A model generated the notes under the pieces. That model did no database searches, was not told the DNA's origin, and saw only the letters and a list, made by a program, of their open reading frames with translations. The position numbers and the translations under genes are program-made. From a virus, in IMG/VR virus record IMGVR_UViG_3300042865_000002, positions 1 through 23,249 of that record: a stretch of DNA of 23,249 bases. One strand, given 5' to 3'. Positions 8,467 through 23,249 of this stretch are shown in pieces. Positions within the stretch are counted from its first letter, which is position 1; each line of letters begins with the position of its first letter.

Positions 8467-9107
8467 CCTACTTAGAACTTGTTAACGATGTGTTAGTTCG
8501 CTTGCGTGAAAGCACAGTATCTACTGTTGGCGAAACAACCTATTCTTCTTTGATTGGCAAGTTTGTCAATGATGCCAAGCGTCAGATTGAAGATTCCTAT
8601 AACTGGAATGTCTTAGGACAAACGATTACAGTTACTACTGCTTCTGGTACAAGTTCTTATGCTTTGACAGGTGCGGGTCAGAAGTTTCGTATCAATGACG
8701 CTATTAACACTACCAGTGTTATTACTTTAGATAACACAACTGTTGCGGACATGAACCGCAAACTCAACTTTGGTACGCCTTCACAGTCTATTCCTTCAGA
8801 GTTTTGCTTTAGTGGTGTAGATGGCAATGGCGATACAAAGATTGATTTGTTTCCAGTTCCTAATGGCGTATATACACTTAAGTTTGATGTAACTGTCCCA
8901 CAGGCCAATCTGTCTGCTGATGGCACTTCTGTCAAGGTTTTGGACTACTTGGTTGCTCAAAGTGCCTATGCTCGTGCTTTGATAGAACGTGGTGAAGATG
9001 GTGGAACAAACTCTAATGAGGCTTATGCTTTGTTTAGAGGAATGCTCTCTGATGCTATTGCATTGGAAAGCACTCGTTATCCCGAAGACAACTTTGTGGC
9101 GGTCTAA
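8463..9107 (+). CDS. Head-tail adaptor protein (SU10/P22-type)
   Basis: This 214-residue protein should sit under the portal and join it to the tail. It begins MTYLELVNDVLVRLRE and continues with LIGKFVNDAKRQIEDSYNWN, the helical signature of phage adaptor proteins. A beta-rich middle (IDLFPVPNGVYTLKFDVTVP) and a second helical pair (LVAQSAYARALIERGEDGGT) complete the typical fold. Position before the nozzle-like protein agrees. It overlaps the upstream gene by ATGA and the downstream gene by TAATG. Confidence 0.85.
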   Translation: MTYLELVNDVLVRLRESTVSTVGETTYSSLIGKFVNDAKRQIEDSYNWNVLGQTITVTTASGTSSYALTGAGQKFRINDAINTTSVITLDNTTVADMNRKLNFGTPSQSIPSEFCFSGVDGNGDTKIDLFPVPNGVYTLKFDVTVPQANLSADGTSVKVLDYLVAQSAYARALIERGEDGGTNSNEAYALFRGMLSDAIALESTRYPEDNFVAV

Positions 9108-10651
9108 TGGCATCAGCACTCCAAAGTTATAGTCTTTCAGCACCAGGCTTTTATGGCCTGAATACTGAAGATTCGCCTCTTGATTTAGGGTCGGGCTTTG
9201 CCTTGGTCGCAACTAACTGCATCTTGGATCAGTATGGTCGTATTGGTGCTAGAAAAGGTTGGACAAGGGTTAACTCTTCTTCTGGCAATCTAGGTGCTAA
9301 CGATGTTGGTGTTATCCATGAATTAGTCCAAAACGATGGAACTTTGACTGTTCTGTTTGCTGGCAACAACAAGATATTTAAACTCGGGACATCTAACGCT
9401 GTTACTGAGTTGACCTATGGCGGTGGTGGTTCTGCTCCTACTATTTCAGCAAGTAACTGGCAATGTGCATCCTTGAATGGCATTGCATACTTCTTCCAAA
9501 CTGGTCACGATCCACTCATTTATGACCCTGCCGTAAGTACAACTACTTATCGCAGAGTGTCTGAGAAGTCTGGTTATGTAGCTACAGTTCCTCAAGCAAA
9601 CATCTGCATTTCAGCATTTGGTCGCTTATGGGTGGCTAATACATCTACAGACAAAGTAACTGTTACCTTCTCTGATCTGATTGCAGGTCATGTGTGGGGT
9701 GGTGGTACTTCAGGCTCATTGGATGTATCCCGTGTGTGGCCCAATGGTGCTGATGAAGTGATGGGCTTGGCAGCTCACAATGATTTCCTGTTTATCTTTG
9801 GTAAGAAGCAGATTCTTGTTTACTCTGGTGCTTCTACTCCCGCATCTCTTGTTCTGAGCGACACAGTAGGCTCAATTGGGTGTATCGCTAGGGATACCAT
9901 TCAAAGTATTGGTACTGATGTTGTTTTCTTGTCAGACTCAGGTGTTCGTTCTCTGATGAGGACTATCCAAGAGAAGTCTGCTCCTTTGAGAGACTTATCT
10001 AAGAATGTTCGTTTTGACTTGGAATCTTCCTTGGCGGGAGAAACACTAGCAAACATTAAATCTGTTTATTCAGAAAAGAACGCTTTTTATCTGCTTGTTC
10101 TGCCCGCTACTTTGCAAGTCTACTGTTTTGATACAAAGCAATCTTTGCAAGATGGTGCTTCCCGTGTAACCAAATGGGACTCTATCGCTCCAACTGCTTT
10201 ACGTTCTTTGCGTAATGGTGATTTATACATTGGCAAGAATGGCTACATTGGTAAGTATGGTGGGTATCTTGATGATGCTACTACTTACCAATTTTCCTAC
10301 TACACAAACAATGCTGACTTAGGAAACCCTAATCAGATTTCTATTCTGAAGTCTATTACTGCCGTGGTGATTGGTGGTTCTAACCAGTTCCTCACAATCA
10401 AGTGGGCTTTTGACTATTCAGGTGCTTATCAGTCAGAGAACGTTTTTATTCCACCTCAAGGCTACTTTGAGTATGGCATTGGAGAATATGCGGTTGCAGA
10501 CTACTCAAGCGGTATACCAATTAAAGCATTAACAAGTAATGCGTCTAGTGCGGGTAAAATCGTACAAACTGGTTACGAAGCCACTATCAATGGCACTCAG
10601 TTGTCAATTCAGAAAATTGAACTTCAAGCCAAAGAAGGCAAGATAGGATAA
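9107..10651 (+). CDS. Tail nozzle or tail-hub protein
   Basis: This 514-residue protein probably forms the tube at the tail tip through which DNA leaves. The N-terminus (SLSAPGFYGLNTEDSPLDLGSGFA and NCILDQYGRIGARKGWTRVN) is a common opening of nozzle proteins in aquatic podophages. The central part has repeated beta-propeller-like strands (YFFQTGHDPLIYDP, FGRLWVANTSTDKV, LFIFGKKQILVYSG). Its start overlaps the adaptor stop by one base. Family identity among nozzle proteins is low, so a generic tail tubular protein B-like label is the fallback. Confidence 0.82.
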   Translation: MASALQSYSLSAPGFYGLNTEDSPLDLGSGFALVATNCILDQYGRIGARKGWTRVNSSSGNLGANDVGVIHELVQNDGTLTVLFAGNNKIFKLGTSNAVTELTYGGGGSAPTISASNWQCASLNGIAYFFQTGHDPLIYDPAVSTTTYRRVSEKSGYVATVPQANICISAFGRLWVANTSTDKVTVTFSDLIAGHVWGGGTSGSLDVSRVWPNGADEVMGLAAHNDFLFIFGKKQILVYSGASTPASLVLSDTVGSIGCIARDTIQSIGTDVVFLSDSGVRSLMRTIQEKSAPLRDLSKNVRFDLESSLAGETLANIKSVYSEKNAFYLLVLPATLQVYCFDTKQSLQDGASRVTKWDSIAPTALRSLRNGDLYIGKNGYIGKYGGYLDDATTYQFSYYTNNADLGNPNQISILKSITAVVIGGSNQFLTIKWAFDYSGAYQSENVFIPPQGYFEYGIGEYAVADYSSGIPIKALTSNASSAGKIVQTGYEATINGTQLSIQKIELQAKEGKIG

Positions 10652-12815: not shown

Positions 12816-14867
12816 ATGCCATTACAAGCTACAAGCGGTGCGGCTAGTTACGATGCCTTTGGAGGCGGGGTTGCTGCTGTACCAAACTATATAGAGTCGG
12901 TGTTTAGCACGTTTCTTTACACAGGGACAAGCGCAAGCCAAACCATAACAAACAATATTGACTTGTCTACTAAGGGTGGATTGGTTTGGTTAAAAGGCAG
13001 GGTTGGCACTTACGGAACATCAAACCATCGGCTATTTGATACTTCTCGTGGAGCGGGAATTTCACTATTGAGTAATTTAACTTCAGGAAATAGTGATATT
13101 AGCGGGTTTTCCTTGTCATCTTTTAACTCAAATGGGTTTTCTTTAGAGGGCAGCTTAACTGATGTAAATCTTTCACCTGATACCTACGCCTCATGGACAT
13201 TCCGCAAGCAACCAAAGTTTTTTGATATTGTGACGTTTAGCACCAATGCTTCAGGCGGTGGAACTTTTACACACAATTTAGGTTCGACCCCCGGTTTCAT
13301 TATTGTCAAGTCAAGTAGCAATGCGGATCAGTGGACTATTTATCATCGTTCATTAGGCACTAGCGGATATATGTATTTAAATACAACCGCCGCTAACAAT
13401 CCTATTGCTGGTTTTTGGAGTGTAAGTTCAACATCAGTAACTTTTGCAGACGGATATGGCCCCGCTAATGCTTCTATGGTTGCCTACCTATTCGCCCATG
13501 ACGCAGGAGGCTTTGGTCTAACTGGTACAGACAATGTGATTTCGTGTGGGTCTTATACGGGTAATAGTTCTTCAACTGGCCCTGTAGTAACGCTTGGGTA
13601 TGAGCCTCAATGGTTAATGGTAAAAGATGCCTCATCCACTAATGACTGGTTCATTATTGACAATATGCGGGGTTTACTTAGCGAAACCGCAGGGGCCGCA
13701 ATACTTTACCCAAATCTTAGTTCTGCTGAATTTGTTTCTGGTGCAAATATAGTAACCCCTACTGCCACAGGTTTTAAAATAACTACAACATCAGATGCGT
13801 TTAACTTTTCTGGTAGAACATACATCTACATAGCCATTCGCAGAGGCCCGATGAAAGTGCCTACGAGTGGGACTAGTGTGTTTTATCCCAATGCCATTGC
13901 ACAGGCAAACACAATTGATTCTACAGGTGTGCCATTTCCACCTGATTTGGTCAATACATTTAGTAGAAACGGAACGGATAGAACATCGCAGTATAACCAA
14001 TTTCAATTTGTAGACCGCTTGCGTGGATTAGGAACACCAAGTGATACATTGAGTGGGGGGGGAGGCCCATCTCTTTTATCAGCATCTACCGCAGCAGAAG
14101 CCAGTGCGTTCTCTTATGTTCAATTAAAAGCTGACTCACAAAATATTACTAGAGCTGGTGGTTGGGGTTCTGCGGCTTATGGTGATTGGATTAACTACTT
14201 CTTCAGACGCGCCCCCAGCTTCTTTGATGAGGTTTGCTATACAGGTAATGGCGGTATAAATAACATACAAAATCATGCTTTGGCTTCTTCTATCGGAATG
14301 TTAATTGTAAAAAGAAGGGATTCGGCAGGAAATTGGTCTGTGTTTGCTCAAGAATCAGGAGGAAATTATTCTTATTGGAATTCGTCTGGCACTGGTACTG
14401 GTCAAGGATTGAATGGAACTGGTGCGGCAACAGGAACTAATTACTCTGGGTTCAATACTTATTTAACTAGTGCTTCATTTAATGCGGCTCAAATAGCGGG
14501 TTCAAATGACATCAATGCCAATGGTGCAACTTATGTAGCCTACCTATTTGCCACTTGTGCAGGTGTTTCCAAAGTAGGTTCATACACAGGCACAGCCACT
14601 ACAAAGCAAATTGATTGCGGTTTTACAGGTGGGGCGAGGTTTGTCTTAATCAAGCGCACAGACTCAACTGGTGATTGGTATGTATGGGATTCAGCACGAG
14701 GAATCGTAAGTGGTAATGACCCTTACTTGCTTTTAAATACCACAGCCGCTGAAGTAACTAACACCGACTACATAGACACATACAGCGCAGGGTTTGAGAT
14801 TAGTTCAACTGCGCCAGCCGCCATCAATGCCTCTGGTGGCTCGTTTATCTTTTTTGCAGTGAGTTGA
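12816..14867 (+). CDS. DUF7483-like repeat appendage protein, possible receptor binder
   Basis: This 683-residue protein starts at ATG 12816, 4 bases after the fibre stop. The frame is open to 12765, but those codons overlap the fibre gene. Repeated modules of roughly 100 residues can be seen: strand blocks like FTHNLGSTPGFIIVKSSSNA-DQWTIYHRS, then LGYEPQWLMVKDASSTNDWF, then ALASSIGMLIVKRRDSAGNW and CGFTGGARFVLIKRTDSTGD, each ending in YVAYLFA- or FIFFAVS-like strands. This is the pattern I recall as DUF7483 in aquatic phages. Its position after the fibre and before a tail chaperone suggests a surface appendage that touches the host. A G8 tract at 14055-14062 lies in the coding frame at residue 414. 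Confidence 0.8.
   Translation: MPLQATSGAASYDAFGGGVAAVPNYIESVFSTFLYTGTSASQTITNNIDLSTKGGLVWLKGRVGTYGTSNHRLFDTSRGAGISLLSNLTSGNSDISGFSLSSFNSNGFSLEGSLTDVNLSPDTYASWTFRKQPKFFDIVTFSTNASGGGTFTHNLGSTPGFIIVKSSSNADQWTIYHRSLGTSGYMYLNTTAANNPIAGFWSVSSTSVTFADGYGPANASMVAYLFAHDAGGFGLTGTDNVISCGSYTGNSSSTGPVVTLGYEPQWLMVKDASSTNDWFIIDNMRGLLSETAGAAILYPNLSSAEFVSGANIVTPTATGFKITTTSDAFNFSGRTYIYIAIRRGPMKVPTSGTSVFYPNAIAQANTIDSTGVPFPPDLVNTFSRNGTDRTSQYNQFQFVDRLRGLGTPSDTLSGGGGPSLLSASTAAEASAFSYVQLKADSQNITRAGGWGSAAYGDWINYFFRRAPSFFDEVCYTGNGGINNIQNHALASSIGMLIVKRRDSAGNWSVFAQESGGNYSYWNSSGTGTGQGLNGTGAATGTNYSGFNTYLTSASFNAAQIAGSNDINANGATYVAYLFATCAGVSKVGSYTGTATTKQIDCGFTGGARFVLIKRTDSTGDWYVWDSARGIVSGNDPYLLLNTTAAEVTNTDYIDTYSAGFEISSTAPAAINASGGSFIFFAVS
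14055..14062 (+). repeat. In-frame G8 tract in the appendage gene
   Basis: Eight G encode part of SGGGGP at about residues 413-418. A gain of one G would shift to a frame that stops after about 25 codons, and a loss of one G to a frame that also stops within about 25 codons; I read both. Such tracts are the usual substrate of slipped-strand phase variation. Confidence 0.7.
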
Positions 14868-14869
14868 GC

Positions 14870-15397
14870 ATGACAAAAGACATATTCCGCAAGCGTTATA
14901 CGCAACACAAGAGCAACGCAAAGATGCGTGGTGTTGAGTTTCTATTCACATTTGTGGAGTGGAAAGATTGGTGGATTGCGACAGGCAAATGGGAACAACG
15001 TGGCAAACTGCGTGGACAATATGTAATGCGTAGGCATGGCGATATTGGGCCTTATTCTATTGACAATGTTTTTTGTGGTGTGACAGAAGAAAATGTTAGA
15101 GATGGTAATTTGGGTAAAGAAATTACTATTGAAACAAGAAATAAAATATCTGCATCAAATAAAGGTCAGTCTCATCCTTGGTCATTAGGTGATAAAAACC
15201 CAATGCACAGACCAGAAGTAAAAGCCAAGATAAGCGCACTAACTAGCGGGTCAAAGCACTACAAAGCACGAATGGTTAACACCCCCTCTGGAATATGGGG
15301 TTCTGCTACTGAATGCGCTAAAGCGTTGAATATGCCAAAGCCAACAGTTGAATGGCGTTGCAAAAATCAGAAATCAGGCTTTGCCTACCTTACATAA
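14870..15397 (+). CDS. Free-standing homing endonuclease with NUMOD3 and NUMOD1-like domains
   Basis: This 175-residue protein starts at ATG 14870; a TTG at 14864 is possible but adds only two residues. The N-terminal part has WWIATGKWEQRG, then YVMRRHGDIGPYSIDNVFCG and ENVRDGN (about 51-80), resembling the His-Me finger type seen in phage HNH-like nucleases. Residues 87-125 (TRNKISASNKGQ, KNPMHRPEVKAKIS) fit NUMOD3, a DNA-contact motif. Residues 136-173 (VNTPSGIWGSATECAKALNM) fit NUMOD1/IENR1 helix-turn-helix. Such genes spread into tail regions of related phages by cutting alleles that lack them. No intron or split gene is visible next to it. The catalytic His is assigned by resemblance only. 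Confidence 0.8.
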   Translation: MTKDIFRKRYTQHKSNAKMRGVEFLFTFVEWKDWWIATGKWEQRGKLRGQYVMRRHGDIGPYSIDNVFCGVTEENVRDGNLGKEITIETRNKISASNKGQSHPWSLGDKNPMHRPEVKAKISALTSGSKHYKARMVNTPSGIWGSATECAKALNMPKPTVEWRCKNQKSGFAYLT

Positions 15398-19230: not shown

Positions 19231-21414
19231 ATGGCTACGATTGCTGAAATTCGTAAAGAATACCCTCAGTATTCAGACATGACTGATACTCAGTTGGCTG
19301 ATGCTTTTCATTCAAAATTTTATTCAGACATACCAAAAGACACTTTTTATACGCAACTTGGTATAAAAACAACACCCGTATCAAGCATGGAACTTATGTT
19401 TGGTGCTGGTAGCCCTATTGCCAGAACAATTAAAGGTGCGGTAGTAGACCCTGCGTTGGCTGTTAATCAGTTGTTAGCAAGTACGGGTTTGTTTGGTCAA
19501 GATATTAAGCGAGGCGCAACCCAACTTGTTAGCGATGTTGAGCAAGCAACCACTGAAGGTCGTGCAAGAGTTGGTAGTAGTGGTTTTGACCCATACCAGA
19601 CGCTTGGTAATGTTATAAGCCCTGTAAATCGTTTAGTTGGTGTTACACAAGCACCACTTCAAGGTGCAGGTTTAATGGCTAACATAGCCCGATCTGGAAG
19701 CACTGGTGCGGCTTTAAGTGCTTTGCAACCAGTAAATGCTCCTGTGGAACAGTTTGCTGAACGTAAATTAGAGCAAATGGCTACGGGTTTTGTTCTTGGC
19801 CCTGTTGTTGAAGGTGGCGTAAAGGCTGTTGGAGGTCTTTTAAATACACTAAAAGGACTCACGCCTACTGGTCGTCAGGAGTTCATGCAAAAGCAATTGA
19901 ATGAACTTGCTGGGCCTGATCGAACAAAAGTAATTGAAGCATTGCGTGATGCTAAAGAATTAGTAAGTGGTTCTCGACCAACTGCGGCACAAGCAATTTC
20001 TGATATTCCTTCAGCAGTTGAACTTGCGGCTGCACAAAGTAAACTTGCTAGTAAAGCAAAAGTAGCAGGTCAGTTTCAAGAGCGTTTGGTAGAACAACAA
20101 GCGGCTAGGGCAAGAGAAATCCAATCTGTTGCTGGCACAGAGGCTCAGAGAGCTGCTGTAATTGCAAAAAGAGAAGAAGTAACAACGCCAATGCGTGAGG
20201 CAGCATTAGAACAAACCAATCTTGCAGGGCCTATCTTTACCAAGTTAGAAAAAGAGATTTCAGATAAGTTTAATAGCTTGGCGGCTGCTGAACAAACATC
20301 TGGTATGACAGGTTTAGCCGCAACAATTCAAAAATCTCTAGCGGAAAAAGGACGGCCTGGTTGGTTGTCTGCGGGTGATATTGCGTCAGAAGCGGCAGGT
20401 CGTGCAAAAGCATACAAAGAACTTGCAGGGACGTTGCGTGGTGAGGCTCAATTAAAACAATTCCAACTTAATAGCTTAGAACAAAATGGATTCTTTCCAT
20501 TACGTGCATCCGATTTAACAGAACAACTAGATAAAGCCATTCGTGGAACTGTATCTGACCAAAGCAAAGCTGTTTTGCAAGGTATTAGGGATAAAGTTGT
20601 TTCTAAGGCTGATGAAAATGGCTTGTTAAATAGTCGTGATGTATATGAAAACATTAGAAAAATATCCAATCAAGATGTGGCAAAAATGCTTAATCTTGGT
20701 GAGCAATATGCTTCTGGTGGAATTCCTCAACAAGCGGCTAAAGCCTTGGGCAGTGCAAAACAATTTATTGATGCGTCATTGAATAAGTCATCTGATGGAT
20801 TGTGGAGTAAATATCTTACTTCTTATGCTGCTTATAGTAAAAAACTTAATCGCATGGAAGTTGGAGACTACTTGTCTAAGAGTTTAAATACACCTTTGGG
20901 TAAAGAATCTGCTGGTGAATTTGCTACTGCCGTTGAGAATGCTGCGGGAACAATTAAAAAATCCACTGGTATTCCAAGGTTTGATAAGTTGTCAGATGTT
21001 TTGACCCCTAAAGAAGTTGCTTCTGTAAACAACGTATTGGCAGACCTAAAACGTGATTCAAAAACAAAAGAACTTGCAAGAAAAGTTAGTGCCCTTGATA
21101 TTGGTGGCCCTGAAATTCTAAAAGAAGCCCCACAACTGTTAAACAGAACATATACAGTAATGAAGGCGGCTGTTGAATATTTACAAAGAGGTAATGCAAA
21201 CGAATACAACAAACAGATGGCTGAGTTGATGATGAACCCAGGTGCTTTGGCTCAGTTTATGACTGTTGGCATACCTAAAGGCAGAACAAATGAGTTTGTT
21301 TCTTCAATGATGAAGTTAATGGATGCTCCAACTAGATCGGCATTTATTCAGTCCTTTACAGTACCCGCTGCGGCTAAAGAAGTTGGGGATTCACAACTTA
21401 CTATGGCTGAGTAA
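19231..21414 (+). CDS. Internal virion/ejection protein C
   Basis: This 727-residue protein starts after AAGGAG. Its first 45 residues (IRKEYPQYSDMTDTQLADAF, then SDIPKDTFYTQLG) are an opening I recall from many phage virion and ejected proteins. A Gly/Pro/Ala region follows, then long helical stretches (VEQQAARAREIQSVAGTEAQ) to the end. It has no visible protease or muramidase motif. As the longest and last of three consecutive large genes, it resembles the largest ejection protein of podophages, though sequence similarity to T7 gp16 is not evident. The stop shares TAATG with the next gene. Confidence 0.72.
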   Translation: MATIAEIRKEYPQYSDMTDTQLADAFHSKFYSDIPKDTFYTQLGIKTTPVSSMELMFGAGSPIARTIKGAVVDPALAVNQLLASTGLFGQDIKRGATQLVSDVEQATTEGRARVGSSGFDPYQTLGNVISPVNRLVGVTQAPLQGAGLMANIARSGSTGAALSALQPVNAPVEQFAERKLEQMATGFVLGPVVEGGVKAVGGLLNTLKGLTPTGRQEFMQKQLNELAGPDRTKVIEALRDAKELVSGSRPTAAQAISDIPSAVELAAAQSKLASKAKVAGQFQERLVEQQAARAREIQSVAGTEAQRAAVIAKREEVTTPMREAALEQTNLAGPIFTKLEKEISDKFNSLAAAEQTSGMTGLAATIQKSLAEKGRPGWLSAGDIASEAAGRAKAYKELAGTLRGEAQLKQFQLNSLEQNGFFPLRASDLTEQLDKAIRGTVSDQSKAVLQGIRDKVVSKADENGLLNSRDVYENIRKISNQDVAKMLNLGEQYASGGIPQQAAKALGSAKQFIDASLNKSSDGLWSKYLTSYAAYSKKLNRMEVGDYLSKSLNTPLGKESAGEFATAVENAAGTIKKSTGIPRFDKLSDVLTPKEVASVNNVLADLKRDSKTKELARKVSALDIGGPEILKEAPQLLNRTYTVMKAAVEYLQRGNANEYNKQMAELMMNPGALAQFMTVGIPKGRTNEFVSSMMKLMDAPTRSAFIQSFTVPAAAKEVGDSQLTMAE

Positions 21415-21506
21415 TGAAAGACTGGCTGTTTGCTATCTCAGTAGCAGTCCTGATTCTTTGTTTTGTAATTTTCTGTAGTTATATTATTGTTTGGGCATTT
21501 CCGTGA
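21414..21506 (+). CDS. 30-residue single-helix membrane peptide
   Basis: The peptide begins MKDWLFAISVAVLILCFVIF and is one membrane helix from about residue 4 to 27, ending WAFP. It starts one base into the previous stop (TAATG) and overlaps the next GTG start by 4 bases, so coupling supports translation. Size and position at the head of a membrane cassette fit a pinholin-like or accessory lysis peptide; function is not established. Confidence 0.6.
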   Translation: MKDWLFAISVAVLILCFVIFCSYIIVWAFP

Positions 21507-21616
21507 TCGCCTTTCTCTTGGCGGCAACCATAGAGTACCGATGTATTAAATGGACTTGGACTGGTGATGTTTACAACCGAAGGGTTGTTTGCATTAAGTG
21601 GGAGAGAAAGAAATGA
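21503..21616 (+). CDS. 37-residue conserved mini-protein with GTG start
   Basis: It begins with GTG 21503 (GTGA overlap) and ends with TGA 21614-21616, again overlapping the next ATG. The N-terminal segment IAFLLAATI is hydrophobic. EYRCIKWTWTGDVYNRRVVC contains two Cys, three Trp across the protein and an aromatic, basic pattern that I recall from small proteins of related phages. The function is unknown. Confidence 0.6.
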   Translation: MIAFLLAATIEYRCIKWTWTGDVYNRRVVCIKWERKK

Positions 21617-22110
21617 TCGATCCAATTACGGCTCTAGCTGGCATACAGTCAGCTATTTCGATGGTCAAGAAGGCAGCTAATGTTGCCAATGACTTAGGCT
21701 CACTTGCGCCCATGATTGGTAAGCTATTTGACGCTAAGTCTGTAGCTACAAAAGCCATGCTTCAGGCTAAACAGTCTGGCAAAGGCTCAAACATGGGTAC
21801 GGCTTTGCAGATTGAGATGGCTTTAGAACAGGCTAGAGCGTTTGAGGAAGAGCTAAAGATGCTCTTCATGCAGACAGGCAAGATTGATGTCTGGCAGAAG
21901 ATTAAAGCCCGTCAAGCAGAGATGGACTTGGCAGATGCCAAAGAGATAAGTGCTTTGAAGAAAGCAGAGAAAGCAGCCAAACAGAAAGAGCAAGAACAAC
22001 TAGAGATTGGCTTGGCAATAGGTGGAATCTGCTTTGTTTTGTTTTTAGTCTTTGTTGGCGTAAATGAGCTGATGACATTCTGTGAAACAACCAGAAGGTG
22101 CGGTAGGTGA
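21613..22110 (+). CDS. C-terminally membrane-anchored coiled-coil protein
   Basis: This 165-residue protein starts at ATG 21613; a GTG at 21598 lies in the same frame but inside the previous gene. The N-terminus is MIDPITALAGIQSAISMVKK, an opening I recall in uncharacterised podophage proteins near lysis genes. Residues of about 66-130 are charged helix (KQKEQEQLEIG), followed by one membrane helix (GLAIGGICFVLFLVFVGV, about 133-150) and a short Cys-containing tail. The tail-anchored topology is the reverse of a normal i-spanin (Rz). A role in lysis or membrane remodelling is inferred from context. Confidence 0.7.
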   Translation: MIDPITALAGIQSAISMVKKAANVANDLGSLAPMIGKLFDAKSVATKAMLQAKQSGKGSNMGTALQIEMALEQARAFEEELKMLFMQTGKIDVWQKIKARQAEMDLADAKEISALKKAEKAAKQKEQEQLEIGLAIGGICFVLFLVFVGVNELMTFCETTRRCGR

Positions 22111-22262
22111 ATGAGTACCAAAAGACCTTTGACTTGTGCCTAAAAATCTTCGTTTACGGGATGGTGGCTCTGTATTTCTTAGGTTTTCTGAAGTTCTTAC
22201 CTGATGATCTGTCTGACAGAATTGTCAATCTTCTACTTGGAAAGGTTGGTCTTGGTAAATGA
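22107..22262 (+). CDS. 51-residue membrane protein with GTG start, holin candidate
   Basis: It begins at GTG 22107, overlapping the previous stop (GTGA); the nearby ATG at 22111 gives only a ten-codon frame. The peptide MNEYQKTFDLCLKIFVYGMV has one membrane helix (about 12-30, CLKIFVYGMVALYFLGFL), then an acidic turn PDDLSD and an amphipathic end. One helix with charged flanks fits a small class III-like holin, but this is not proven. Confidence 0.65.
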   Translation: MNEYQKTFDLCLKIFVYGMVALYFLGFLKFLPDDLSDRIVNLLLGKVGLGK

Positions 22263-22321
22263 AGTACTTACTTGCTAATTTATTTGGCAAGAGTAAAATG
22301 CGAAATGCCAAGTGGCGGTAA
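22259..22321 (+). CDS. 20-residue possible leader peptide
   Basis: ATG 22259 overlaps the previous stop (ATGA) and the frame runs MKYLLANLFGKSKMRNAKWR to TAA at 22319-22321. It is hydrophobic then basic. The tight overlap suggests it is translated, but at this length chance is a serious alternative. Its end lies inside the hairpin at 22305-22332. Confidence 0.35.
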   Translation: MKYLLANLFGKSKMRNAKWR

Positions 22322-22332
22322 CTACTTGGCAT
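22305..22332. promoter_or_regulatory. Perfect hairpin between the membrane cassette and the HNH gene
   Basis: ATGCCAAGT (22305-22313) pairs perfectly with ACTTGGCAT (22324-22332); a G-U and a G-C pair extend it to 11 bp with loop CGGTAA. No T-run follows, so it is not a clear terminator. It lies about 30 bases before the HNH start and could mark the left edge of that insertion or protect the upstream message. Confidence 0.5.
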
Positions 22333-22361
22333 CTCTAACCTAAATGATGAAAGGACATCAA

Positions 22362-22868
22362 ATGGCTGAAATTAGTTTATCACGTGAGCGTTTGTGCGAG
22401 TTGCTAGAGGTGGATACTGAGAAAGGAATCTTTACTTGGAAAAACACAATGGGTGGTAAAGCGCAAAAAGGTCAGCAAGCAGGTTCAAAACAAAGAATTG
22501 GATATATTTGTATACGATTAGATCAAAAAGATTACTACGCACATAGGTTGATGTGGCTATATGTTTATGGTGCAATTCCATTGCTTCAAATTGACCATAT
22601 AAATAGAAATAAAGAAGACAATAGACCAGTTAATTTGAGATTGGCTACTCAGAAACAGAATAGTGAAAACATGTTTACGACAACTAAAAATACATCAGGT
22701 TTTCGTGGTGTTAGATATGAAACTAGATTGAAGTCAAAACCTTGGTCTGCTTGTATAACTAACAATTACAAACAGAAGCATCTTGGTTATTACGCAACAA
22801 TGCAGGAGGCAATTATGGCAAGGCAAGCGGCTGAAGATGCACTTTTTACACACCACATAAGACAATGA
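22362..22868 (+). CDS. HNH homing endonuclease with AP2 DNA-binding domain
   Basis: This 168-residue protein is a classic mobile HNH-AP2 nuclease. Residues 60-104 hold the HNH core: AHR (60-62), IDHINRNKEDN (77-87), then NLRLAT and QNSEN, with the conserved D78-H79 and N residues. Residues 112-161 (SGFRGVRYE, WSACITNNYKQKHLGYYAT, EAIMARQAAEDALF) form an AP2 domain for site recognition. AAAGGA (22350-22354 region) is spaced well for the ATG at 22362, so I prefer it to the ATG at 22344. It interrupts a run of tiny membrane genes and shares ATGA with the lipoprotein gene downstream, so it has adapted to the operon. Confidence 0.92.
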   Translation: MAEISLSRERLCELLEVDTEKGIFTWKNTMGGKAQKGQQAGSKQRIGYICIRLDQKDYYAHRLMWLYVYGAIPLLQIDHINRNKEDNRPVNLRLATQKQNSENMFTTTKNTSGFRGVRYETRLKSKPWSACITNNYKQKHLGYYATMQEAIMARQAAEDALFTHHIRQ

Positions 22869-23071
22869 AAAACACTATTTTTATTGCTATTGTTGGGTTG
22901 CTTTTGTCTGGATGCTTAGATGAGAAATATCGCTATTTTTGCCAAAACCCAGACAATTTCCATGCTGAACAATGTCAAAAACCTAGATGCCAATTCACTC
23001 AGACTTGCCCTGAGTACTTAGTAGCACCAATTTTGGAGAAAAAGATTGACGAAGTTAAACCTAACAACTGA
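22865..23071 (+). CDS. Small cysteine-rich lipoprotein
   Basis: This 68-residue protein has a signal peptide (MKNTIFIAIVGLLLSGC) with lipobox LSGC, so C17 would be lipidated and the mature protein of 52 residues would be held in the outer or inner membrane leaflet facing the periplasm. Four further Cys (26, 37, 42, 48) suggest disulfides. Similar KY-Y-CQNP...C.KP.C...TCP proteins occur near lysis genes of related phages. An o-spanin-like (Rz1-like) role is possible but Cys richness is unlike typical proline-rich Rz1. The start overlaps the HNH stop; TTG of the next gene lies inside its 3' end. Confidence 0.8.
   Translation: MKNTIFIAIVGLLLSGCLDEKYRYFCQNPDNFHAEQCQKPRCQFTQTCPEYLVAPILEKKIDEVKPNN
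23035..23038 (+). promoter_or_regulatory. Shine-Dalgarno that selects a TTG start
   Basis: GGAG ends 7 bases before TTG 23046. There is no ATG in that frame until well inside the first membrane helix, and the frame is closed by a stop at 23022-23024, so this site decides the start. Confidence 0.6.
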
Positions 23072-23249
23072 AGAGATTGAGGTAAGAATTTGGGGGTTTG
23101 TTGTGATTGCGGTCACACTTATCCTCATGTTTATTGTTGCTGCTTTGCTCTACTCGGTCACGTTTGTCACTCAGCCTATCAAAAGCATGGCCCCGATTGA
23201 CCAAGCCTACACCAAGATGCTGAACGACATTGTTCTTTTGATCGTTGGT
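23046..23249 (+). CDS. Membrane protein of the lysis-like cassette, TTG start, cut by the window edge
   Basis: The frame is open from TTG 23046 to the end of the window (68 codons). With TTG as initiator it begins MTKLNLTTEEIEVRIWGFVV, an opening I recall from membrane proteins near the lysis genes of other podophages. One membrane helix is clear (VVIAVTLILMFIVAALLYSV, about 19-38), then a loop ITKSM-like APIDQAYTKM, and a second hydrophobic segment (IVLLIVG) begins as the window ends. Two helices would fit a holin or a related pore protein. It overlaps the lipoprotein gene by 26 bases. Confidence 0.7.
   Translation, partial: MTKLNLTTEEIEVRIWGFVVIAVTLILMFIVAALLYSVTFVTQPIKSMAPIDQAYTKMLNDIVLLIVG

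Follow-up and report, generated by a model that had tools for sequence, protein, structure and literature searches.

Small overlapping genes at the end of an aquatic tailed-phage fragment probably form the upstream half of a canonical lysis operon

Introduction

The described systems closest to the locus considered here are the lambda-type cassette of holin, endolysin and Rz/Rz1 genes, the GH19 endolysins of phages, and the free-standing HNH homing endonucleases of phage T4. As set out in one report (PMC6139136), an embedded o-spanin gene lies out of frame within the i-spanin gene, encodes a lipobox and a proline-rich stretch, and usually starts at about 0.4-0.5 of the i-spanin length, and a u-spanin combines an N-terminal lipobox with a C-terminal transmembrane domain. 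Free-standing endonucleases situated between phage genes are likewise well known (PMC2988022). Here we consider positions 21414 to 23249 of IMGVR_UViG_3300042865_000002. This virus record of 23,249 bases may be a fragment, and we call its entire length the window. Its terminase, portal and major head genes indicate that it comes from a tailed phage.

An original prediction, made from the sequence alone, had interpreted these final positions as a noncanonical membrane or lysis cassette without an endolysin, whose six very small coupled genes would either work with an enzyme beyond the window or represent a lysis mode of a different type. Our analysis points, with a probability that we place at roughly 0.93, to a canonical lysis operon of the Gram-negative type in an aquatic tailed phage, of which only the upstream half lies before the fragment end.

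Results

Gene order and the loci compared

The genes of this region all lie on the plus strand with short overlaps, in the order g1, g2, g3, g4, a gene for an HNH endonuclease, a gene for a Cys-rich lipoprotein, and g6. Relatives were gathered with g3 as bait, and the best 80 of at least 592 IMG/VR relatives were kept as the close loci (L002-L081), such that identity among these first 80 is selected. The wider loci (L086-L245) comprise the best 80 of 120 and the best 80 of 593 relatives. No set was made non-redundant, and some loci are near-identical. The window itself (L001) is excluded from close-set counts, and L001 together with L082-L085 (annotated records and a duplicate contig) from wide-set counts. 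A gene was counted as present on a tblastn match with E no higher than 1e-4, on the plus strand and no more than 5 kb away. The query proteins came from L014, L059, L078, L082 and L083, and divergent copies may therefore be missed. Statements regarding transmembrane segments and signal peptides were read from sequence and from two structure models.

Close relatives continue into a spanin and an endolysin

The sixth small gene, g6 (23046..23249, plus strand), runs off the end of the window. In L014 and L002, the order after g3 is g4, the lipoprotein gene, g6 (169-171 residues), and then genes for proteins of 165 and 198-199 residues. An Rz-type spanin and a GH19 endolysin follow g6 in 42 of the 42 close loci that carry g6 and extend 2 kb or more beyond the start of g3. 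Among all 51 close loci of this extent, 42 have lipoprotein, g6, Rz and GH19 together, and the remaining nine have none of the four. The nearest relative found, L011, is 96.3% identical at the nucleotide level over 1835 of the 1836 bases of the region, and it goes on into g6 and a full Rz gene in which Rz1 is embedded, its contig ending 37 residues into the GH19 protein.

The 165-residue protein of L014 matches i-spanin families of the Rz type (phrog_1327, E=3.9e-6; phrog_2466, E=2.3e-5; phrog_312, E=2.8e-5). An alternative frame of the Rz gene encodes a lipobox and, after it, a proline-rich stretch, as in LASCASAPQVTYKPPQVPPLP. Such an embedded Rz1-type open reading frame (ORF) is present in every complete Rz gene scored, 42 of 42 among the close loci and 87 of 87 across all loci collected. 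In L014, Rz1 starts at about codon 68 of 165, or 0.41 of the i-spanin length, and this is the same architecture as that described for embedded o-spanins in PMC6139136.

The GH19 assignment of the enzyme in the relatives is based on PF00182 (E=1.3e-10; 41.9 bits against a cut-off of 25.5), on the endolysin family phrog_181 (E=3.3e-75), and on matches over most of its length to the solved structures 9eoi (E=2.5e-41) and 4ok7 (E=1.5e-30). A pair of Glu residues, E46 and E55, is invariant in all 110 loci with a GH19 match and corresponds by motif and spacing to E51/E60 of PaGH19Lys (PMC12329726). The catalytic pair is present together with the domain, and hydrolytic activity is predicted.

Within the window, no wall-degrading Pfam domain was found in the 22 proteins given to Pfam and/or PHROGs, a scan that left several short ORFs outside (such as those at 442, 6338, 6779 and 7260). 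This agrees with the earlier observation that no such enzyme is visible. Given that the window ends inside g6, and that relatives, L011 among them, continue into the enzyme, the missing endolysin is best explained by the fragment end and is most likely a truncation artefact. We infer from these sequences that the phage represented by the window has the same continuation into Rz/Rz1 and GH19. An enzyme beyond the window, one of the two outcomes of the original prediction, is therefore borne out by the relatives, and neither the absence of an endolysin nor a lysis mode of a different type finds support. A standard holin-endolysin-Rz set, the observation that the original prediction had named as speaking against it, occurs in these 42 relatives as the direct continuation of the genes, with its candidate holin assigned by place and topology only.

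Elsewhere in the window, a 514-residue protein (9107-10651) matches phrog family 5107, labelled 'amidase', over most of its length (E=1.9e-27). It has no Pfam domain and its remaining PHROGs matches are head or connector proteins; the label is probably wrong.

The holin candidate g6

In the window g6 encodes 68 or more residues, and full-length copies are longer: among 26 diverse copies, 23 have 155-185 residues and three have 93-98. The two-helix protein described originally is real, and its very small size reflects the cut at the window end (full range, 93-185 residues). The PHROGs match of g6 is phrog_25359, a family of unknown function. A structure model of the L014 homologue places helices at residues 8-41 and 50-86, with predicted local distance difference test (pLDDT) values of 84-90 over residues 11-40 and 77-84 over residues 51-80, followed by a disordered stretch. 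A class II holin would have two transmembrane helices and cause lethal, timed permeabilization of the membrane; for g6 the two helices are predicted. We regard g6 as a holin candidate by position and topology only. Profile comparisons of g6 or g3 as potential relatives of three-transmembrane (3TM) holins gave nothing.

A constant gene beside variable lysis modules

The g3 gene (21613..22110, plus strand) encodes a 165-residue helical protein with a C-terminal hydrophobic helix, which is followed in most relatives by two Cys residues. Alignment A1 of 48 g3 sequences has 24 invariant columns, and the ratio of nonsynonymous to synonymous polymorphism (pN/pS) of 0.08 is the lowest among the genes examined. 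Its PHROGs match is a family of unknown function (phrog_32327, E=6.4e-11). The structure model is all-helical and of low confidence (pLDDT 67.6; predicted template modelling score, pTM, 0.42), and its 12 best matches in Foldseek are to uncharacterized or nameless proteins of phages or viruses. A PADLOC match to DrmD (E=0.0096, residues 55-127) was discounted as a weak coiled-coil similarity.

When the close set and L086-L245 are combined, 165 loci extend at least 3 kb past g3, and 159 of these have a lysis enzyme within 5 kb of it: GH19 in 97, M15 in 38, GH24 in 14 and GH108 in 10. Eight close loci (L038, L052, L058, L059, L069, L072, L073 and L079) carry a GH24-type lysozyme and a 167-residue membrane protein that matches phrog_6637 (unknown function) and no named holin family, and L078 carries a GH108 muramidase with GTA_holin_3TM. 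Pfam was applied to these alternative modules in L059 and L078, and all nine non-GH19 close loci were scored by tblastn. Among annotated records, g3 is followed in MW202879.1 by an annotated holin and then peptidase M15, and in MW202710.1 by two genes and then a lysozyme. In L246, a cell wall hydrolase gene (PF07486, E=3.6e-17) comes directly after a distant g3 homologue, and this locus also encodes a protein just under the GTA_holin_3TM cut-off. Because the enzyme class varies across these loci and records, g3 appears as a fixed gene beside a variable lysis module.

Five of the loci lacking an enzyme were inspected. The genes after g2 and g3 in L241 and L244, and those after g3 in L245, are apparently not of phage origin, and the available downstream sequence shows no lysis enzyme; in L244 it extends only 3.7 kb past g3. 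This layout is possibly that of a prophage end. In L184 and L236, g3 is followed by a gene for a 202-residue protein and small ORFs, and then by genes resembling the head genes of the window.

These patterns raise the possibility, on balance somewhat unlikely, that g3, with g2 in two of three branches and g4 in close relatives, is a constant lysis-accessory or timing gene onto which different modules of membrane protein and endolysin dock. The association with four enzyme classes (and with PF07486 in L246) and the strong constraint on g3 are consistent with such a role. However, the place of g3 may persist only as a boundary between virion and lysis genes, three of the six enzyme-less loci place g3 beside apparently non-phage genes, the g2 motif is lacking in one entire branch (see below), and g3 matches no family of assigned function. 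We consider it unlikely, though worth stating, that g3 controls lysis as a constant protein throughout a large group of aquatic phages, acting as an undescribed, enzyme-independent regulator or co-factor. This tail-anchored protein, whose membrane helix is usually followed by a Cys pair, might by that doubtful account work with at least four unrelated endolysin classes and with different membrane proteins, and the secreted Cys/Trp peptide g2 might, with similar doubt, be its partner in two of the three branches examined.

The small genes g1, g2 and g4

A 727-residue ORF lies directly 5′ of g1 and ends at 21414, where its stop shares one base with the g1 start codon (TAATG). Its counterpart in L002 (5569-7761) bears an SLT transglycosylase domain at its N-terminus (PF01464, E=3.3e-18), and Pfam detects no such domain in the 727-residue protein of the window. 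From g1 to g4, each neighbouring pair of genes overlaps by 4 bases. The product of g1 (21414..21506, plus strand) is a single hydrophobic helix of 30 residues, and that of g4 (22107..22262, plus strand, GTG start) is a small helical or membrane protein of 51 residues. Matches by tblastn were obtained in 75 (g1), 80 (g2) and 78 (g4) of the 80 close loci, nearly always at a constant position relative to g3, and the lipoprotein gene and g6 are present in most close loci that reach further downstream. In L053 and L066, extra small ORFs of about 55 and 100 residues lie between g4 and the lipoprotein gene, which there starts at +810 or +951 instead of +646.

The second gene, g2 (21503..21616, plus strand, GTG start), encodes 37 residues with a short hydrophobic N-terminus followed by a C-x-K-W-T-W...C-x-K-W motif. 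Longer alleles in L241, L244 and L002 have a signal peptide as read from sequence, and the product is probably a short secreted Cys/Trp peptide. The Cys/Trp composition reported earlier is accordingly correct, and its placement in a membrane set is less apt. The motif precedes g3 in 78 of 79 close loci and in 69 of 77 loci of L166-L245, whereas all 80 loci of the L086-L165 branch lack it (five match a looser pattern). Thus, g2 is less constant than g3.

Calculated from distinct alleles (rows) derived by tblastn, which favours open frames, pN/pS is 0.48 for g1 (59 rows), 0.20 for g2 (50), 0.08 for g3 (73), 0.12 for g4 (68), 0.13 for the lipoprotein (50) and 0.14 for g6 (50). No row has an internal stop in the frame of any of the six genes, and shifted frames of the same codon rows give values of 0.78-4.91. 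All six are thus genuine genes subject to purifying selection: ORFs of 30, 37, 165 and 51 residues, a 68-residue Cys-rich lipoprotein and a two-helix protein of at least 68 residues. We view g1 through g4 and the lipoprotein gene as putative accessory genes beside the lysis operon.

The Cys-rich lipoprotein

The lipoprotein gene (22865..23071, plus strand) encodes 68 residues with the lipobox LSGC. Among the 165 loci, it was seen with g6 in 84 of 84 cases, exclusively in GH19 modules, and in none of the 62 loci with GH24, GH108 or M15 enzymes; hence the lipoprotein travels with g6.

This linkage bears on the possibility, which we consider somewhat unlikely, that g1 through g4 and the lipoprotein gene serve host takeover or superinfection exclusion and merely adjoin the lysis operon. 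Such functions would suit products that are small, secreted, lipidated or tail-anchored, and they would accord with the location of g2 and g3 beside apparently non-phage genes in L241 and L244 and with a weak match of the lipoprotein to Cor (phrog_1119, E=0.0057). However, the Cor match covers only residues 1-28 of 68, mostly signal peptide, and does not extend over the mature lipoprotein, so we rejected this assignment. Moreover, an exclusion gene that merely adjoins the operon is difficult to reconcile with a lipoprotein confined to loci with g6, and PADLOC returned no convincing match. A scan of genomes for a host gave three distant matches in metagenome-assembled genomes, and a plasmid search gave none. 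Our literature search turned up no title on this gene block, and we make no claim that it is unpublished.

It is highly improbable that the lipoprotein is itself the o-spanin. Its lipobox, small size and position adjoining membrane genes would be suitable, and Rz occurs in 78 of the 84 loci that have the lipoprotein, but in the other six no Rz was detected, and we rejected this role because a proline-rich Rz1 already fills it in every complete Rz gene scored. A u-spanin role was rejected as well: the lipobox is present and there is no C-terminal membrane helix, the C-terminus being hydrophilic as read from sequence (EKKIDEVKPNN).

An HNH endonuclease gene at the start of the lipoprotein gene

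The coupled genes described originally do share short overlaps, and they are not one contiguous run, given that a previously unmentioned HNH endonuclease gene (22344..22868, plus strand, alternative start 22362) lies between g4 and the lipoprotein gene. Its 174-residue product carries an HNH domain (PF13392, E=5.2e-17; 61.6 bits against a cut-off of 24.8), matches phrog_99 (E=2.6e-59), and has a weak AP2-like match at its C-terminus. Its pN/pS is 0.65, from five alleles only.

In L014 and L030, which lack the HNH gene, the lipoprotein gene starts with ATGAAGTACTTACTTG..., overlapping the g4 stop, and the uninterrupted protein reads MKYLLVFVAFMLHGCDEKYRYF. In the window, the old start is kept at 22259 as a short dead-end ORF (22259..22321, plus strand; MKYLLA..., then a stop), followed by the HNH gene. 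The first bases of this relic are identical to those of the uninterrupted genes of L014 and L030, which read MKYLLVFVAFMLHGC. The window lipoprotein picks up again at DEKYRYF, preceded by a signal peptide of another sequence, MKNTIFIAIVGLLLSGCL, which starts at an ATG overlapping the HNH stop and, among the sequences compared, is common to the window and L011 only. As read from these sequences, an HNH endonuclease gene has entered the lipoprotein gene at its start, and the lipoprotein now begins with a replaced signal peptide.

L011 is the one close locus with an HNH match at this place, and its HNH protein is 100% identical to that of the window. The exact patterns of both HNH junctions were found in one IMG/VR contig only, IMGVR_UViG_3300042371_000043 (L011/L085). 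The lipoprotein gene is thus whole in L014 and L030 and split in the window and L011, a distribution consistent with a putative homing endonuclease. Relatives of the HNH gene lie at the junction of the lipoprotein gene and g6 (L027, L035 and L096), at the g3 start (L070), and antisense between Rz and GH19 (L006, L043 and L051). Overall, 12 loci have an HNH gene within -800 to +3000 of g3, nine of them among the 165 loci with 3 kb downstream. The usual N-terminus of g6 opens the HNH frame in L035, where g6 itself carries a new one, and the HNH frame of L070 opens at the start of g3. We infer, from a handful of loci, that HNH genes have repeatedly been placed at gene starts with replacement of the 5′ end, which stands out more than their free-standing occurrence between genes. 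A likely second homing endonuclease gene of the window (14864-15397), with a NUMOD3 motif (PF07460, E=6.7e-7), overlaps the ORF at 15352 by about 46 bases.

Discussion

By analogy with the lambda pathway, g6 would serve as holin and open the inner membrane, the peptidoglycan would be cut by the GH19 enzyme, and Rz/Rz1 would disrupt the outer membrane, with the enzyme and spanin assignments resting on family matches.

Several observations weigh against this interpretation. The endolysin of the window phage is deduced from relatives, since the window stops within g6, and the exact last 27 bases of the window occur in none of the collected loci. No Rz was detected in 19 of 97 GH19 loci, and six of the 165 loci have g3 without a scored enzyme. 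Regarding g6, no significant match to a holin family was obtained (the PHROGs match is of unknown function and there is no Pfam match), comparison by hhalign with the 3TM holins of sister modules gave a probability of 1%, and the L014 model is weak overall (pLDDT 67.2, pTM 0.33). Finally, a lysis operon leaves the roles of g1 through g4 and of the lipoprotein unexplained.

An enzyme-free, noncanonical membrane-disruption system of six small proteins has next to no likelihood and was rejected: coupled genes with several small hydrophobic products and the lack of a wall-degrading Pfam domain in the window proteins searched would favour it, but an endolysin follows in every close relative with the same downstream set, 159 of 165 wider loci have an enzyme after g3, the HNH gene interrupts the set, and the g2 product looks secreted.

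The system is an ordinary lysis operon of an already known kind, and its recognition removes a false candidate for enzyme-free lysis. It also draws attention to modular lysis genes in abundant uncultured aquatic phages, with a constant upstream gene and interchangeable endolysin modules, and to HNH endonucleases at gene starts within a tightly overlapping operon.

Compared with the lambda-type cassette, the relatives share an i-spanin family match, a proline-rich o-spanin lipoprotein in another frame, and an adjacent endolysin. They differ in gene order (holin candidate, Rz/Rz1, endolysin), in the use of a GH19 enzyme, in the extra small genes upstream, and in that g6 is not recognizable as a named holin family. 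GTA_holin_3TM (PF11351) modules with GH108 or M15 enzymes hold the position downstream of g3 in L078 and MW202879.1; however, they have no profile similarity to g6 and are not the module of this window. The GH19 enzymes resemble the phage endolysins PaGH19Lys (9EOI) and SPN1S endolysin (4OK7) in having a Glu pair at the same 9-residue spacing (PMC12329726), whereas their activity is predicted from sequence. As with the T4 mob genes, which are free-standing HNH homing endonucleases (PMC2988022), a stand-alone HNH gene lies between conserved phage genes and is present in some relatives and absent in others. Unlike the mob genes as portrayed there, the putative homing endonuclease gene of the window sits in the 5′ end of a gene within an overlapping operon, and the start and signal peptide of its host gene appear to have been replaced.

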